A stretch of DNA of 38,595 nucleotides, from contig REDT01000108.1 in assembly GCA_007693295.1 (NCBI GenBank), positions 1 through 38,595 of the forward strand, given 5' to 3'. A program made the position numbers and the translations under genes. The notes beneath the pieces were generated by a model. That model ran no database searches, had not been told where the DNA came from, and saw only the letters and a program-made list of their open reading frames with translations. Origin of the DNA: Balneolaceae bacterium. GTDB taxonomy: Bacteria; Bacteroidota; Rhodothermia; Balneolales; Balneolaceae. Numbering within the stretch: position 1 is the stretch's first letter; each line of letters starts with the position of its first letter. Below, one piece after another: positions 4,611 through 33,561 of this stretch.

Positions 4611-5078
4611 CTACTCTTCTGGTGCAACTACCTGAACAGCAAAGTTTCTGGAATCAAAATCTGAGTGACTCACATGGAAAAGTTGAACTGAAAATGATGC
4701 AGAACCTGCTGAAATGCCTACCAGTTGCAGATGCCATTCATTGTTGTTAACCGGATGATTTACATTAAGAACATCCGTGTCGGTAATATTATACTCGAGA
4801 GAGTATCCATCTTCAGTTTCGTACACAACTGGTTCTCCGCTTTCAAGGAAAAATTGTACTTCGATCGCGGATGTGGTTTCGCCTTCTTGAACTGTGATAA
4901 AGTTTGCATCACCGGGATAGGTAATCACTGTTCCTTCCTGGGTTGCAATTACTTCACCATCCATTATCAAGTTGAGGCCAACAGGTGTGGGGCCATGGTC
5001 GTCAGACCCACAGGCTGTTAGGATCAATGCGAGTATCATTATAGGGAATAGTATAAGATTGTTGCTTAGTAGCTTCAT
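4611..5078 (-). CDS. Putative lipoprotein in the ZnuD-like receptor operon
   Basis: 155 residues with a clear lipoprotein signal: MKLLSN start, hydrophobic core and lipobox ILTAC, so Cys23 would be lipidated. The mature N-terminus begins GSDDHGPTPVGLNLIMDGE, a short Asp/His patch that could bind metal. The rest is acidic and beta-strand-like, without a domain I recognise. It lies 57 bases upstream of the TonB receptor on the same strand and is probably co-transcribed. Inference: a surface- or periplasm-facing partner of the receptor that binds or passes on the same metal. I do not know the family; the exact role is open. Confidence 0.8.
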   Translation of the reverse strand: MKLLSNNLILFPIMILALILTACGSDDHGPTPVGLNLIMDGEVIATQEGTVITYPGDANFITVQEGETTSAIEVQFFLESGEPVVYETEDGYSLEYNITDTDVLNVNHPVNNNEWHLQLVGISAGSASFSVQLFHVSHSDFDSRNFAVQVVAPEE

Positions 5079-27921: not shown

Positions 27922-29397
27922 ATGAAATCCTTTCAATCTGTTCTATTATTACTGTCTATCATCTTCTTCTCCGGATATCCGATGAGCATTGTTGCTCAGG
28001 CTGTTCTTGAAATCGATTCAATCTCATCCGAAGCTCTATTGGATCAGGAGAAGCGTCTGCCGGGTACCCTGTTTACCTGGGAAGCGGAACAGTTTCCTGA
28101 CCCTGCAAAGATAGTTGCAGATGATGATGTTGCGATATTTTCTTTTTCGGAGAGGCCGCCTTTACCGTTTACCGGTTTGGCAATCGGCTGGGAGGTTGAT
28201 GGAGAGACTCCGCATGCTCACCATTTCCAGCTTGAGATCCGGTCGAGAATGCAGGGCGAGGAGTGGCCTGACCGGGTCTTTACAAATGGGTATCTCAATC
28301 CTGAGGATTCACCTTCCGGGCTCTATTGGGCAATGCTCTATGTAACACCTGATGGAAATGCACATGAAGAGTTTGAAGTGAGAATCTCTTCGCCTGCCGG
28401 CACCGCAATCTCTTTTTTAAGAATTACGGCAGCTGATGCCCGGTTTGAAGCTGCACCCGGTAAAAAGAAAGAGTTTTATATTGAATCGGACGAACCCGAA
28501 ATGCCGGAAATCATCAGCAGGGAAGGGTGGTGGGGAAATCTGCCGCCCGGGGAGATGGAGCCTGGATATACTCCCCAACAAATCAATATTACTCATGCAG
28601 CGGTTCACCACACCGTAACCTCCAATTCACCACCCGATCCGGCCCAGGTAGTACGCCAGATTTGGGATTGGCACGTAAACGACAACGGATGGCTTGATAC
28701 CGGTTACAATTTCCTGATCGATCATACCGGAAATATCTACCAGGGGCGCTATAATCCATGGCTCGAAACCACGGACGTTCGCGGTGCTCATGCAGGTCAG
28801 GCTAACAGCAGCAGCGTTGGTATTGCGCTGTTGGGTCAGTTTGAACCGGGAGCCAACCCACAGGTGGGTAACCCGGCTTCTGTTGCGCTTGATGCGCTGA
28901 TAAAACTGATCTCATGGCGCTTCACGCAAAAAAATATCGATCCTCAGGCTGAGGCTCCAATTCCGGTTAACCCATCCGGCACCCGGATTTTACCCACTAT
29001 CCTGGGGCACAGGGACGTGAGTGCAACGGCCTGTCCCGGAGTAAATCTCTACACGCTCCTTCCCGATATTCGAAATTCAACAGAGGGCGGAACCGGTGAA
29101 TTTGAAGATCCCGATGATGAAGATGTGATTGCCGGTCCGTTTCGGCTGTTCCAAAATTATCCCAATCCATTCAGCGGCGAAACGACCATTCCATTTGAGC
29201 TTGAGCAGGCCAGGGAAATTCGTGTGGAGCTATATAGTGTAAATGGTGATCACATCAGAACCTTGTACTCCGGGTGGTTCGACAGGGGAGATCATGACGT
29301 TTCGGTGAGTTTGGCCGGCCTGGCCAGCGGGGTCTATTTTTATGAACTGGTTACCAGAGATTTTCGCCAGATGAAACAGATGGTGTTTTTCAGGTGA
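27922..29397 (+). CDS. Secreted N-acetylmuramoyl-L-alanine amidase with type IX-style sorting domain
   Basis: 491 residues: signal peptide (to about 26), an N-terminal beta-sandwich (about 45-180), an amidase_2/PGRP domain (about 190-385), and a C-terminal sorting domain (about 405-491). Zinc ligands of the amidase are His229 or His230 (AAVHHTVT), His363 (GHRDVS) and Cys371 (ACPG). The tail FRLFQNYPNPFSGETTIPFE ... LASGVYFYEL is the conserved domain that directs proteins through the type IX secretion system or related routes in FCB bacteria. It should hydrolyse peptidoglycan amide bonds outside the cell or at the surface, perhaps in lysis of other cells. The ATG is preceded by CCTCCTTGCAGCAG with no clear Shine-Dalgarno. 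Confidence 0.92.
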   Translation: MKSFQSVLLLLSIIFFSGYPMSIVAQAVLEIDSISSEALLDQEKRLPGTLFTWEAEQFPDPAKIVADDDVAIFSFSERPPLPFTGLAIGWEVDGETPHAHHFQLEIRSRMQGEEWPDRVFTNGYLNPEDSPSGLYWAMLYVTPDGNAHEEFEVRISSPAGTAISFLRITAADARFEAAPGKKKEFYIESDEPEMPEIISREGWWGNLPPGEMEPGYTPQQINITHAAVHHTVTSNSPPDPAQVVRQIWDWHVNDNGWLDTGYNFLIDHTGNIYQGRYNPWLETTDVRGAHAGQANSSSVGIALLGQFEPGANPQVGNPASVALDALIKLISWRFTQKNIDPQAEAPIPVNPSGTRILPTILGHRDVSATACPGVNLYTLLPDIRNSTEGGTGEFEDPDDEDVIAGPFRLFQNYPNPFSGETTIPFELEQAREIRVELYSVNGDHIRTLYSGWFDRGDHDVSVSLAGLASGVYFYELVTRDFRQMKQMVFFR

Positions 29398-30198
29398 GCG
29401 ATCGGGGTGCCTTCGGTGTAGAATTGTAGAATTGACGAACCGTAGACCTGCCCCTTAGGGACTCCTTCGGAGACAGTATTCCCGCGCTTTTTCGGGTTTC
29501 TGCCCCATTGGGATTCCTACGGAATCAGCGTCGAATTTAGGGGAGGAACTGTGGAATCGTAGAGCTGCCCAGAAGGGATCGCTATGCGAAAATTTAATTT
29601 ACCCAGGGCTGTGTTGTATGACGCCTTCAGCGTCGGATTTTACCCTTTTTACAAAATCTAAATCTACATGTGGATTCACTACAGGTATCTGTTCGTCACG
29701 TTCTGTAGGAACGTTTGCTCGGTAACTAAGAGATGGCAAAAAAACCAAACCTCCGGCCCGAATCTTAGAATAACCACGGGATATTATTCCGGAGGGTGTT
29801 CGCGGGGTTCTGAATTGGGCTACGGGGCATAGATCCGTAGAAAGGGTTTTCCCGTCAAACCCTCGATTCTGATTTGGTCGTTGATATGGATCCGGCCTCG
29901 GTGGTATAGATGGAGAGGTCGTATCCATATGTTTTTCGAAAATTAAACAGTTAAACTTGCACTCCTGAATATAATTCTGAATCTTTACAAGAGTTAGAAA
30001 ATGAAATGGGTTAATTTGATAAATTACCAACATTCGATATATGAAGAGTGTAGTAGTATATCCAAAGTTTTCCTATAACAAGCAAACCAAGCGGTCGCAT
30101 TTGCAGTTAATTGCTTGTATTCAGGTACTAAACCGCACCGCTAATTTCTCAGGCCTTTGTACTGGCCAGATGTCCTCTATTGCAGAGAGGTGGACGCA
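29398..30198. other. 800-base non-coding region rich in small hairpins
   Basis: No gene is supported. The left part holds a series of short dyads: CTCC/GGAG (29462-29472), CCCG/CGGG (29481-29496), GATTCC/GGAATC (29512-29526, 3-base loop), GACGC/GCGTC (29620-29634), ACGTTC/GAACGT (29698-29714), and a GTAGAATT tandem near 29418. A 144-codon open frame on the minus strand (29599-30033) has no recognisable protein features. At 30076-30109 lies a nested hairpin described separately. This looks like degenerate repeat DNA at a site open to insertions. Confidence 0.5.
30076..30109. repeat. Nested TAAC...GTTA hairpin upstream of the foreign gene
   Basis: TAAC(30076-30079) aa GCAA(30082-30085) ... GCG(30091) gt CGC(30096) ... 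TTGC(30101-30104) a GTTA(30106-30109). Three nested stems with unequal unpaired bases recall an integron attC site but are shorter than known ones, and the core after GTTA (ATT) does not fit GTTRRRY. An alternative pairing is ACAAGCAA/TTGCTTGT (30078-30085, 30111-30118). Confidence 0.3.
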
Positions 30199-31671
30199 AT
30201 GACCGAAAAATGTGATACTTGCATCGTGGGCGCCGGAATCGCCGGCCTGAACGCGCTGTTCGTCGCCAGCCGGTATCTCTCCCGCGACCAGCGGGTCATC
30301 CTGGTTGACCGCCGTTCCCGCGCCGGTGGTATGTGGGTCGACACCTACGACTATGTCCGCCTCCATCAGCCTCATCCGTTCTTTACTGCCGGGAACATCG
30401 AATGGACCCTCGGCAAGGCACAGGAGCACCTCGCGACCAAGAATGAGGTCCTCGACCATTTGCAGCACTGCCTGGAGGTGATCAAGCGGCGCATCCGGGT
30501 CACCGAGTTGTTCGGCTGCGAGTTCGAGAATGCCGAGGAGGTCGGCGGGATGGTGCGAATAAACTGCATCTCCGGCGAAGGCCGTGAAATCGAAATCGAG
30601 GCCGACCGGCTGATTAAGGCATACGGGCAAGGGGTAGAAACAAACGCGCCGCTCGAGCTGTCGAGCACCCGCGCCCGCTCGGTCTCACCGGATTACTTCG
30701 ACGTGCGGGGGCCGGAGATGCAGGCCAGCGATGCGCCGGTGTGGATCGTCGGCGGTGGCAAGACCGGCATGGACACGGCCCACACGCTGATCACCGGGCA
30801 GCCCGGCAGGGAGGTCAATCTGGTTGCCGGGCCGGGCACGTTCTTTACCAGCCGTGATCGATTATTCCCGAGTGGGGCGAGCCGGTGGTACAAGGGCGAG
30901 CTCACGAGCTCGGCCTTCACCGGGATGGCTCGCCGCTTCGACGGTACAAACGAGGCCGAGGCCATGGATTGGTTCCGCGAAAATTACGGGGTCTGGCTGA
31001 CACCGGAGACCGGGAACTTCCTGGGCGCATATCTCTCGGAGGCCGAGAACGATACCATCGCGGCCGGACTGAACGAGGTTGTCATGGGATATCTCGCTGA
31101 CGTGGTCGATCATGACGGCGCTGCCGAGGTTATCCTCCGGTCCGGGGCCACGATGCCGTTCGAGCCGGGCAGCTGGGTCATTAACTGCACCGGATCCCTG
31201 ATTCGCGGTGAGAATCCATACGAACCTTACACGTCAGCAAGCGGTAGGATCCTGTCGATTCAGAACCGTTCCGTGACGATCCCCTTCCCTTCGGGCGGCA
31301 ACGCCGCGTACTTCCTCACCCACCTGCTGTTTCTCGGCAAGCTGACCCAGGTGCCCCTCTACGCAGTGGACGCTGAGGACCTCCGCCGGAAAGCCCCCCA
31401 ATTGGTAATGGTCGCCGCGTTCGGATCGCTTCAGCTGTACAATCTCAGTCTGATCGCGGAGGCGGTCCCGGGAGGGCAATTCAATAAGATCGTCTCCCAG
31501 AACGGGCTCGACTTCGACCGCTGGTTCCCGCTCCCGCGACGCCTGCGGGCATCGGTCCGGTTCATACTAACCCACAAGCGCGACCGCGAGCACCACAGGC
31601 GTTCGCTGGACACTGTCGCGGAGCGCTTCGGCTTTCGCGGTGGCCCGGTAGTCGGCGCCGGCCGGGTATGA
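30199..31671 (+). CDS. Horizontally acquired FAD/NAD(P)-binding oxidoreductase
   Basis: 490 residues. Flavin-monooxygenase-like: N-terminal FAD site CIVGAGIAGLNALF (Gly10-Gly15), VDRRSRAGGMWVDTY, LHQPHPFFTAG, and a second nucleotide site WIVGGGKTGMDTAHTL near 185, as in two-dinucleotide flavoproteins; the substrate is unknown. Base use is unlike all neighbours: 42 of 60 bases are G or C at 30241-30300 and 44 of 60 at 31501-31560, against 27 of 60 in the next gene (32041-32100), and third codon positions are mostly G/C. The frame is intact with GAGAGGTGG upstream of ATG 30199, so transfer is recent or the gene is selected. The donor is probably a high-GC organism such as an actinobacterium or proteobacterium (inference). 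Confidence 0.85.
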   Translation: MTEKCDTCIVGAGIAGLNALFVASRYLSRDQRVILVDRRSRAGGMWVDTYDYVRLHQPHPFFTAGNIEWTLGKAQEHLATKNEVLDHLQHCLEVIKRRIRVTELFGCEFENAEEVGGMVRINCISGEGREIEIEADRLIKAYGQGVETNAPLELSSTRARSVSPDYFDVRGPEMQASDAPVWIVGGGKTGMDTAHTLITGQPGREVNLVAGPGTFFTSRDRLFPSGASRWYKGELTSSAFTGMARRFDGTNEAEAMDWFRENYGVWLTPETGNFLGAYLSEAENDTIAAGLNEVVMGYLADVVDHDGAAEVILRSGATMPFEPGSWVINCTGSLIRGENPYEPYTSASGRILSIQNRSVTIPFPSGGNAAYFLTHLLFLGKLTQVPLYAVDAEDLRRKAPQLVMVAAFGSLQLYNLSLIAEAVPGGQFNKIVSQNGLDFDRWFPLPRRLRASVRFILTHKRDREHHRRSLDTVAERFGFRGGPVVGAGRV

Positions 31672-31998
31672 GCGGTGCGTTTATCTGCATTTATTATTGC
31701 TGTCTCACAATTTCTATTTGTTAACGTGGACTTTGTTGCTTCAGGTAAACGTGGCATGCTGACGCAGTACCCGGTACAATATTACTAGCTCTCACTTTGG
31801 ATAGTGTAGCCTTTAGCTGTTACCGACCAAAGACTCCTCCGGAGCCATCATCAATAGACTCATGGATTCGGAAGTGTCTTTGGTCAAAAAAACCGTCAGC
31901 CTTCATAACACAACAAATCATTCAATACTTCTTCCTACCTTACGTTTTCAGAACAGTACCAAAAAATTCAACTTCAACTTCTGAAATAACCATTCAGC
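31672..31998. other. Spacer after the foreign gene with a long inverted repeat
   Basis: Base composition drops to AT-rich at the foreign gene's stop. A 10-bp perfect inverted repeat GACCAAAGAC (31825-31834) / GTCTTTGGTC (31876-31885) with inner TCCG/CGGA forms a roughly 60-base hairpin. It is followed by an A-run rather than a T-run, so it is not a plus-strand terminator. An 82-codon frame crossing into the next gene is not convincing. Confidence 0.4.
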
Positions 31999-33561
31999 GT
32001 GAAAAAAGAACTTCAGTTACGTGTGCCGCCCGAAACCGCCGGTGAGCCGGATAAACTCCGATCTTACATTTCGCATAAAGAGAACATCCCTGAAAGTGAG
32101 ATTACTCATGTAGAGATTTTGAAACGCTCCATTGATGCCCGCCAAAAGGATGTTATTATTAATTTAAAGGCAGTAGTATATGCCGGGGAGCCATTCGTAG
32201 AAGAGCCTGTATCGATCCCCGACTACCCTGATGTAACGAATGCAGAAGAGGTGTTGATTGTGGGGATGGGGCCTGCCGGACTCTTCGCGGCATTAAAACT
32301 GATTGAACTGGGCAAAAAACCGGTGATTTTTGAGCGTGGAAAGGACGTAAAAGCCCGCATCAAGGATCTTAAAAGTATTAACGTAGATCATATCGTTAAC
32401 GAAGACTCCAACTACTGTTTTGGAGAAGGCGGGGCGGGTACCTATTCAGATGGCAAGCTCTATACCCGGAGCAAAAAAAGGGGCGATGTGGACCGTATCC
32501 TGAAACTGCTGGTGGGATTCGGTGCGGTCAGGAATATCATGGTGGAGGCACACCCGCATATCGGAACCAATAAACTGCCTCCCATTATTTCAGCGATGCG
32601 GGAGTGTATAAAACAGCAGGGGGGAGAGATCCATTTTGATACGCGCGTGACGGATTTAATCCTGGACGGAGATCAGATTAAGGGCTTAAAAACCCTTTCC
32701 GGTGATACATATCGCTCTGACAAGGTTATTCTTGCTACAGGGCACTCCGCTCGTGATATTTTTGAGCTGCTACATCGAAAAGGGATTGAAATCGAATTAA
32801 AACCACTGGCGATGGGAGTTCGGGTAGAGCACTCTCAAGAGCTGATAGATTCTATACAGTACAGTTGCGAAGATCGCGGTGAATATTTGCCTCCGTCACC
32901 CTACAATATTTCACGGCAGGTGGATGGAAGAGGGGTCTATTCGTTCTGCATGTGTCCGGGTGGAGTGATTGCCCCCTGTGCCACAAGCCCCGGCGAGATT
33001 GTTACCAACGGCTGGTCTTCATCGCGGAGGGCACGGGCAACGGCCAATTCGGGAATCGTGGTGGAGCTCAGGGAGGAGGATTTTAAACCGTTTGCTGATC
33101 ATGGCCCGCTGGCAGCCATGGAGTTTCAAAAATCTATTGAGCAGAAAGCCTGGCTTGAAGGCGGCAAAACCCAAACCGCCCCTGCTCAGCGCCTGGTTGA
33201 TTTTGTAGAGGGGAGAGTCTCATCTGATTTGCCCAACACCTCTTATGCTCCGGGAATCAGGTCGGTTGAACTGAAAGAGGTGCTGCCGGATTTTATCCAC
33301 AGGGCACTTGTTCATGGCTTCAAAGAGTTTGAAAGGTCAATGAGAGGATATCTCACCAATGATGCGGTCGTTCACGCTCCTGAATCGAGAACTTCATCGC
33401 CGGTACGAATTCCGCGCGACTGGAAAACACTTGAGCACATTCGAATTAAAGGGCTCTATCCGTGCGGAGAGGGCGCGGGTTATGCCGGTGGGATTGTATC
33501 GGCCGCTATGGATGGGGAAAAATGTGCACTGGCCTCTGCAGGGATACGAACAGGCGGCTAA
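31999..33561 (+). CDS. FAD-dependent dehydrogenase, COG2509 family
   Basis: 520 residues starting at GTG. The N-terminal 80 residues form a small alpha/beta domain (ISHKENIPESEITHVEILKR). FAD-binding VGMGPAGLFAALKLIELG lies near 90-107, followed by FGEGGAGTYSDGKLYTR, the family's signature, GVRVEHSQELID, and CPGGVIAPCATSPGEIVTNG. The C-terminus holds the second FAD contact CGEGAGYAGGIVSAAMDG. The family is widespread and conserved but biochemically uncharacterised. It is host-like in composition, unlike the preceding gene. The stop codon opens a perfect inverted repeat shared with the convergent gene. Confidence 0.92.
   Translation: MKKELQLRVPPETAGEPDKLRSYISHKENIPESEITHVEILKRSIDARQKDVIINLKAVVYAGEPFVEEPVSIPDYPDVTNAEEVLIVGMGPAGLFAALKLIELGKKPVIFERGKDVKARIKDLKSINVDHIVNEDSNYCFGEGGAGTYSDGKLYTRSKKRGDVDRILKLLVGFGAVRNIMVEAHPHIGTNKLPPIISAMRECIKQQGGEIHFDTRVTDLILDGDQIKGLKTLSGDTYRSDKVILATGHSARDIFELLHRKGIEIELKPLAMGVRVEHSQELIDSIQYSCEDRGEYLPPSPYNISRQVDGRGVYSFCMCPGGVIAPCATSPGEIVTNGWSSSRRARATANSGIVVELREEDFKPFADHGPLAAMEFQKSIEQKAWLEGGKTQTAPAQRLVDFVEGRVSSDLPNTSYAPGIRSVELKEVLPDFIHRALVHGFKEFERSMRGYLTNDAVVHAPESRTSSPVRIPRDWKTLEHIRIKGLYPCGEGAGYAGGIVSAAMDGEKCALASAGIRTGG

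Follow-up and report, generated by a model that had tools for sequence, protein, structure and literature searches.

The flavoprotein gene and its flanks

In the window (the whole stretch of 38,595 nt that was analysed), a predicted FAD/NAD(P)H-dependent oxidoreductase gene of high GC content, referred to here as the flavoprotein gene, lies at 30199-31671 between two host genes and inside a host repeat that it appears to interrupt. The features of the locus are given below; G000 denotes the window genome, and C156, C120, and C27 are other contigs of G000.

27922..29397, + strand: left flanking gene (host), secreted N-acetylmuramoyl-L-alanine amidase with a T9SS sorting tail (PF01510, PF18962)
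29444..29933, + strand: left part of the host repeat (hairpin-rich region), split by the insert; 90% identical to G000:C156:522-1029
29931..29933, + strand: left junction triplet GTT, which recurs at 31819-31821
Insertion point: GTT-bearing candidate integrase target, AAGTTACC
29934..30071, + strand: AT-rich left part of the insert, read as a cassette tail; 60-base GC ∼0.28-0.35
30072..30162, + strand: decayed integron attC site, GTT core mutated (CCTTTG for CCGTTA)
30156..30198, + strand: 5' leader with ribosome-binding site, common to other Balneolaceae copies and beginning at the attC crossover
30199..31671, + strand: flavoprotein gene, intact, high-GC, 490 aa (PF07992 and PF13450)
31672..31818, + strand: 3' tail of the insert; a cassette would normally carry its attC here, but none was recognised
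31819..31862, + strand: right part of the split host repeat, first bases GTT; 93% identical to G000:C156:1027-1070
31825..31885, no strand assigned: inverted repeat at the end of the host repeat, outside the insert (arms 31825-31848 / 31862-31885)
31999..33561, + strand: right flanking gene (host), FAD-dependent protein with PF21688 C-terminal domain (Pfam; orthologues in congeners)

The frame is undamaged, as a sequence-only reading of the window had stated, and 490 codons are read through 30199-31671. An upstream TTG at 30157 was rejected as start codon in favour of ATG 30199, with which both the homologues and the ribosome-binding site agree. The GC content of the gene is 62.9% (GC1 0.633, GC2 0.464, GC3 0.790), compared with 0.36-0.53 (GC3 0.33-0.56) in the other 24 main ORFs and a mean of 0.458 over the whole window. 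The high GC content noted in that reading is therefore real, but its value of 70-73% is a local maximum and not the gene-wide mean. The neighbours are at ∼46% GC; the 45% ascribed to the next gene did not hold on measurement, the ORF at 31999-33561 giving 50.0%. The composition changes within ∼60 bases of the gene at both ends, in agreement with the reported shift close to the gene ends. GC at fourfold sites (GC4) is 0.81 in the flavoprotein gene and 0.507 ± 0.053 in 20 host genes, a difference of ∼5.7 SD. The codon-use comparison that had been proposed gave a better fit to high-GC bacteria (log2 per codon, Nitriliruptoraceae -1.53 and Natronospiraceae -1.54) than to the host (-1.86). Every one of the 20 host genes tested was far closer in codon use to the host than to Nitriliruptoraceae.

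Orthologues of the right flanking gene are found at 73-83% identity in most congeners. The amidase and FAD-protein genes are adjacent in five of them, separated by 239 (G015), 119 (G019), 511 (G023), 1538 (G024), and 1773 bases (G009); the corresponding gap in the window is 2.6 kb. The flavoprotein gene is absent from all five of these gaps, so that the search for an empty site proposed from the sequence alone found the same two flanks without the gene. The closest relative, G001 (rpoB 97%), is uninformative on this point, its contig stopping shortly past the amidase gene. Profile searches with Pfam and NCBIfam assigned none of the main ORFs in the window to a transposase or integrase family, which bears out the earlier statement that no such gene accompanies the flavoprotein gene.

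A chimeric assembly or a binning error was considered as well, since metagenomes are the source of the assemblies of the window genome and of the relatives that matter most here. On its 38.6-kb contig the gene is internal and is flanked on both sides by genes with conserved synteny in relatives, and copies with 77-78% identity occur at other loci in two further MAGs. Because these related copies also sit in low-GC flanks, we consider an artefact very unlikely.

The interrupted host repeat and the limits of the insert

The ends of the insert were mapped by comparison with the repeat copy on contig C156, which is uninterrupted. The left 490 bases of the repeat in the window align with C156 with small gaps, and the C156 copy continues directly into the sequence that is found to the right of the insert. 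Where the window has two GTT triplets, the uninterrupted paralogue has a single one, within AAGTTACCGACC; the same AAGTTACCGACC is present in C120, another copy of the repeat. Since the C156 repeat runs unbroken with one GTT at the break, the insert measures ∼1.9 kb, about 29934-31818, with the flavoprotein gene as its main part. The description of the locus as a single-gene island thus stands as far as a foreign piece is concerned, but not in the strict sense of one gene, the insert also including an AT-rich part with the attC relic and a 3' tail. Likewise, the hairpin-rich region and the inverted repeat between which the gene had been placed are both there, but the inverted repeat belongs to the pre-existing repeat that was split and not to the insert. 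Its 24-nt arms are 83% complementary, and its first half is found in the uninterrupted C156 paralogue.

The AT-rich left part (29934-30071), attC part aside, had no match in the 28 genomes of the genus; the tail at 31672-31818 had none among congeners, and an Rfam search of the insert returned nothing of note. A 15-nt inverted pair (30131-30145 / 31668-31682) was considered as terminal repeats and set aside, being near chance level.

The host repeat belongs to MITE-like intergenic repeats with complementary ends (CGGTAACT ... AGTTACCG) that recur in the genus. Copies were seen in the window (29444-29933 and 31819-31885), G000:C156:522-1070, G000:C27, G000:C120, and locus L110. This repeat is the source of the hairpin-rich region noted in the sequence-only reading.

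Relatives, distribution, and predicted function of the flavoprotein

The window protein is 78 and 77% identical to the copies in two other MAGs of the genus (L009 in G007 and L010 in G013, respectively), 73% identical to a homologue in a Natronospiraceae MAG (Gammaproteobacteria), and 70-71% identical to homologues in Nitriliruptoraceae MAGs (Actinomycetota); identities of 40-60% are found in Nocardia, Mycobacterium, Gordonia, Roseobacter, and others. In the protein tree, the window protein groups with L009, L010, and L011 in a clade of Balneolaceae and Natronospiraceae (support 99/99), whose sister is a pair of Nitriliruptoraceae (100/100), all within an actinobacterial group. The phylogeny suggested as a means to find the donor thus groups the gene with a gammaproteobacterium and gives Actinomycetota as the sister group of that clade. 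We concluded that the flavoprotein gene was almost certainly acquired horizontally from distantly related high-GC bacteria, as judged from composition, phylogeny, the empty site in congeners, and the patchy distribution described below.

Homologues from different phyla are also paired at two other places in this tree, Gemmatimonadota with a Balneolales MAG and Nitriliruptoraceae with Wenzhouxiangella (both 100/100). The members of the Gemmatimonadota/Balneolales pair (L034 6001-7455 and L035 4327-5835) come from the same set of sediment samples. A 46% identical homologue in a MAG labelled Klebsiella pneumoniae (L032, CAMCBY010000016.1) groups with Gemmatimonadota and Balneolales; the Klebsiella pneumoniae label or the bin may be wrong. 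The records of close relatives carry the sample labels CSSed and T1Sed, which we take to be Kulunda soda-lake sediments. The family radiates mainly in high-GC Actinomycetota and appears to circulate between phyla in soda-lake sediment.

Full copies of the flavoprotein gene are present in 3 of the 28 genomes of the genus, with fragments in two more, and among 394 genomes sampled from the phylum the gene was found in the window genome only. The fragments are a 5'-truncated relic in G009 (L169 2368-2862 on G009:C98; residues 324-488, 78% identical) and a short piece in G014 (L170 2033-2161 on G014:C188; 53% over 47 residues), from which it appears that the gene decays after its arrival in congeners. 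The three full Balneolaceae copies (window, L009, and L010) have unrelated neighbours and lie at different loci. Their fourfold-site divergence is lower than that of rpoB in every genome pair: 0.336 vs 0.597 for G000-G007, 0.359 vs 0.542 for G000-G013, and 0.352 vs 0.450 for G007-G013. The gene therefore moved after the species split, with a source outside or within the genus.

These data bear on the possibility of a single gain in the ancestor of the genus, followed by vertical descent in which the gene changed place and was lost many times. The AU test does not reject a grouping of the three Balneolaceae copies as one clade (p 0.258), and the composition of L009 and L010 is partly ameliorated (GC4 0.75 and 0.74, respectively), both of which would fit an old gain. 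The silent-site divergence, lower than in rpoB for each genome pair, the three unrelated sites, and the lack of the gene in most congeners argue against it, and we regard an ancestral gain as very improbable.

Copies at unrelated loci in three genomes would be expected of any mobile element, including a transposon, phage, plasmid, or ICE that delivered the gene and was later lost. The window holds no gene of a transposase, integrase, or phage family, however; visual inspection of the mapped insert ends showed no terminal inverted repeats, viral contigs yielded no relative, and the plasmid matches were only distant (22-42% identical). Delivery by such an element is unlikely, if somewhat less so than ancestral gain.

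The window protein contains pyridine-nucleotide-disulphide oxidoreductase and Rossmann domains in Pfam (PF07992 and PF13450), and no NCBIfam model reaches its cut-off. Two GxGxxG Rossmann motifs (FAD, NADP) are present, GAGIAG at residue 11 and GGGKTG at residue 185. AlphaFold2 confidently predicted two dinucleotide-binding domains followed by a helical C-terminal part (mean pLDDT 92), in a fold that resembles that of class B monooxygenases. In structure comparison the best solved matches were the Stenotrophomonas maltophilia FMO (Z 21.6) and Bdr/YpdA (Z 21.2), with rmsd 3.8 Å over 293-306 residues at 12-17% identity; other class B monooxygenases matched as well. The window protein shares with class B flavoprotein monooxygenases and their relatives (S. 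maltophilia FMO 4a9w/4c5o and Bdr/YpdA 7a76) the order of the two dinucleotide-binding domains, but differs from them in an extra helical C-terminal part and in lacking the FMO/BVMO/NMO fingerprint: FxGxxxHxxx(Y/F/W) is absent in all 36 proteins checked, the window protein and 35 relatives. Invariant residues include those of GMW, LHQP, GKT, and DT. The enzyme is probably an NAD(P)H- and FAD-dependent oxidoreductase acting on a small molecule, which it would oxidise or reduce, and it is possibly a monooxygenase. In the genomes examined, the relatives have different genes beside them, which offer no functional context, so the enzyme probably works alone. There is a weak likeness over the N-terminal 190 residues to the ArsO family of NAD(P)H-dependent flavin monooxygenases (NF040505), of which the protein is not a member (25.8 bits vs the curated cut-off of 425).

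The attC relic and the route of entry

A search of congeners with the left part of the insert gave one match outside G000, in G008, over 30076-30158. The match sits directly after a gene and its last bases are CCGTTA. The G008 sequence recurs at 87-91% identity in G020 and G003 on contigs with an integron integrase, where the recurrences form arrays with a spacing of ∼0.35-2.7 kb. In an alignment of 20 sites, 90.5% of the cells are paired and 74 cells have changed on both sides, with a covariation score of 0.449 vs 0.141 for shuffles. We read the recurrent sequences of G008, G020, and G003 as attC sites because this alignment supports an attC hairpin. The strict attC pattern was abandoned as a search tool; it gave almost no matches, since the cores of this genus differ from it, and a covariance model built from integrase-linked sites of the genus was used instead.

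With this model, the segment 30072-30162 scored 26.5 bits (E 3.2e-5), the next hit in the window having 11.2 bits (E 1); by BLAST it is 76-77% identical to attC sites of G020 and G008 (E 1e-11 to 1e-12). The site is decayed: the core GTT is now TTT and several pairs are broken. Its hairpin folds no better than shuffles, and the relic was therefore judged by sequence and model. The sequence-only reading had called the entry route unknown, which is partly superseded by this decayed attC at the front of the gene, in spite of the missing 3' site described below. The model places the attC core G at 30156 (now T), and BLASTN homology with the leaders of both L009 and L010 begins at 30156, so that the attC crossover and the first base of the shared leader agree to within one base. 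L009 and L010 share ∼15 extra leader bases upstream of the leader start of the window copy; hence the start at 30156 may be a truncation. GTT is present at both insert ends in addition to the shared leader from the crossover, the three bases being weak evidence by themselves.

Between the stop codon and 31818 the attC model found no site, also when the tail was searched alone, and the hairpin energy of the tail is no better than that of shuffles. In L010 a convergent gene starts 3 bases past the stop codon, which leaves no room for a 3' attC; 1.8 kb upstream, on the same strand, 15 consecutive bases are identical to the attC 3' end (∼0.01 expected over the stretch scanned), the whole site not being significant with the model (E 2.5). 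No attC was found at L009, on a contig of only 6.3 kb.

Integron integrases over the TIGR02249 curated cut-off are encoded in 15 of the 28 genomes of the genus (G002-G004, G006-G009, G015, G016, G019-G023, and G027), among them G007, which also carries the flavoprotein homologue L009; the window genome has none over this cut-off. Matches to the attC model were found in 27 of the 28 genomes, nine of them in G000. A literature search gave no earlier report linking integrons to Balneolaceae, a genus of which is shown here to be rich in them. In G005, two near-identical copies of a different, shorter FMO-like flavoprotein gene were seen (L168 2986-4032, and L167 from ∼2830); in L168 the gene is located between attC sites at 1379-1468 and 4803-4895, and integron arrays of the genus thus carry flavoprotein genes.

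Integrase secondary sites have GTT as their conserved core, and insertion of cassettes into them is known from cases in the laboratory and on plasmids (PMC10127599). On the strength of the attC relic at the gene front, the GTT ends, and the integrases and attC sites of the genus, we favour, with some confidence, the reading that the gene reached its site as an integron gene cassette inserted at a secondary site. In the source piece, the leader and gene of the flavoprotein would have come directly after the AT-rich end of another cassette, attC included; the inserted DNA would thus be a cassette pair or a piece of an array. It would have entered the host repeat between the amidase and FAD-protein genes at a GTT triplet serving as integrase secondary site, and the attC would have decayed afterwards. 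The junctions were presumably made by an integron integrase, and a 3' attC presumably once existed and has since been lost.

Like the known secondary-site cassette insertions, the locus has a single gene outside an array, GTT at both ends, an attC in the inserted DNA, and integrases and arrays elsewhere in the genus. It differs from them in that the recognisable attC is 5' of the gene and decayed, that a 3' attC is not seen, and that the host belongs to Balneolaceae. The main competing explanation also accepts horizontal gain but has the incoming DNA joined by an illegitimate or microhomology-mediated event, e.g., after transformation, the attC being merely co-carried with no integrase action. 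It would account for the missing 3' attC, a junction overlap of only 3 bases, a window genome with no integrase over the cut-off, and the occurrence of L009 and L010 outside recognisable arrays. The position of the attC crossover within a base of the shared leader start and the GTT at both insert ends speak against it, and we give this explanation a smaller, though appreciable, chance than secondary-site insertion of a cassette.

Foreign genes that stand alone, with no mobile element beside them, are frequent finds, and how they entered can usually not be traced. At this locus the uninterrupted repeat copy fixes the ends of the insert, and the relic at the gene front points to a concrete, testable route. 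A complete integron, with integrase and array, has been reported in Salinibacter ruber M1 (IntegronFinder 2.0, PMC9024848), which is also a halophile of the wider Bacteroidetes group, whereas the window locus is an isolated gene beside a relic site. Actinobacteria reportedly lack complete integrons (PMC9024848); if so, the gene would have turned into a cassette only once it was outside its actinobacterial hosts. Hypersaline soda-lake metagenomes contain integrons and attC clusters (PMC7923331). As a tentative proposal, which we think doubtful in its full extent, the chromosomal integrons of soda-lake Balneolaceae might act as a hub, taking up actinobacterial-type genes from the sediment and scattering single-gene insertions at GTT secondary sites; outside the array such foreign genes would become permanent while their attC erodes. 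The flavoprotein belongs to an uncharacterised oxidoreductase family that, within a single type of habitat, appears to move among Actinomycetota, Gammaproteobacteria, Gemmatimonadota, and Balneolota.

Elsewhere in the window, two adjacent beta-lactamase-fold genes (PF00144; 10749-12107 and 12144-13559) follow a gamma-glutamyltranspeptidase gene.
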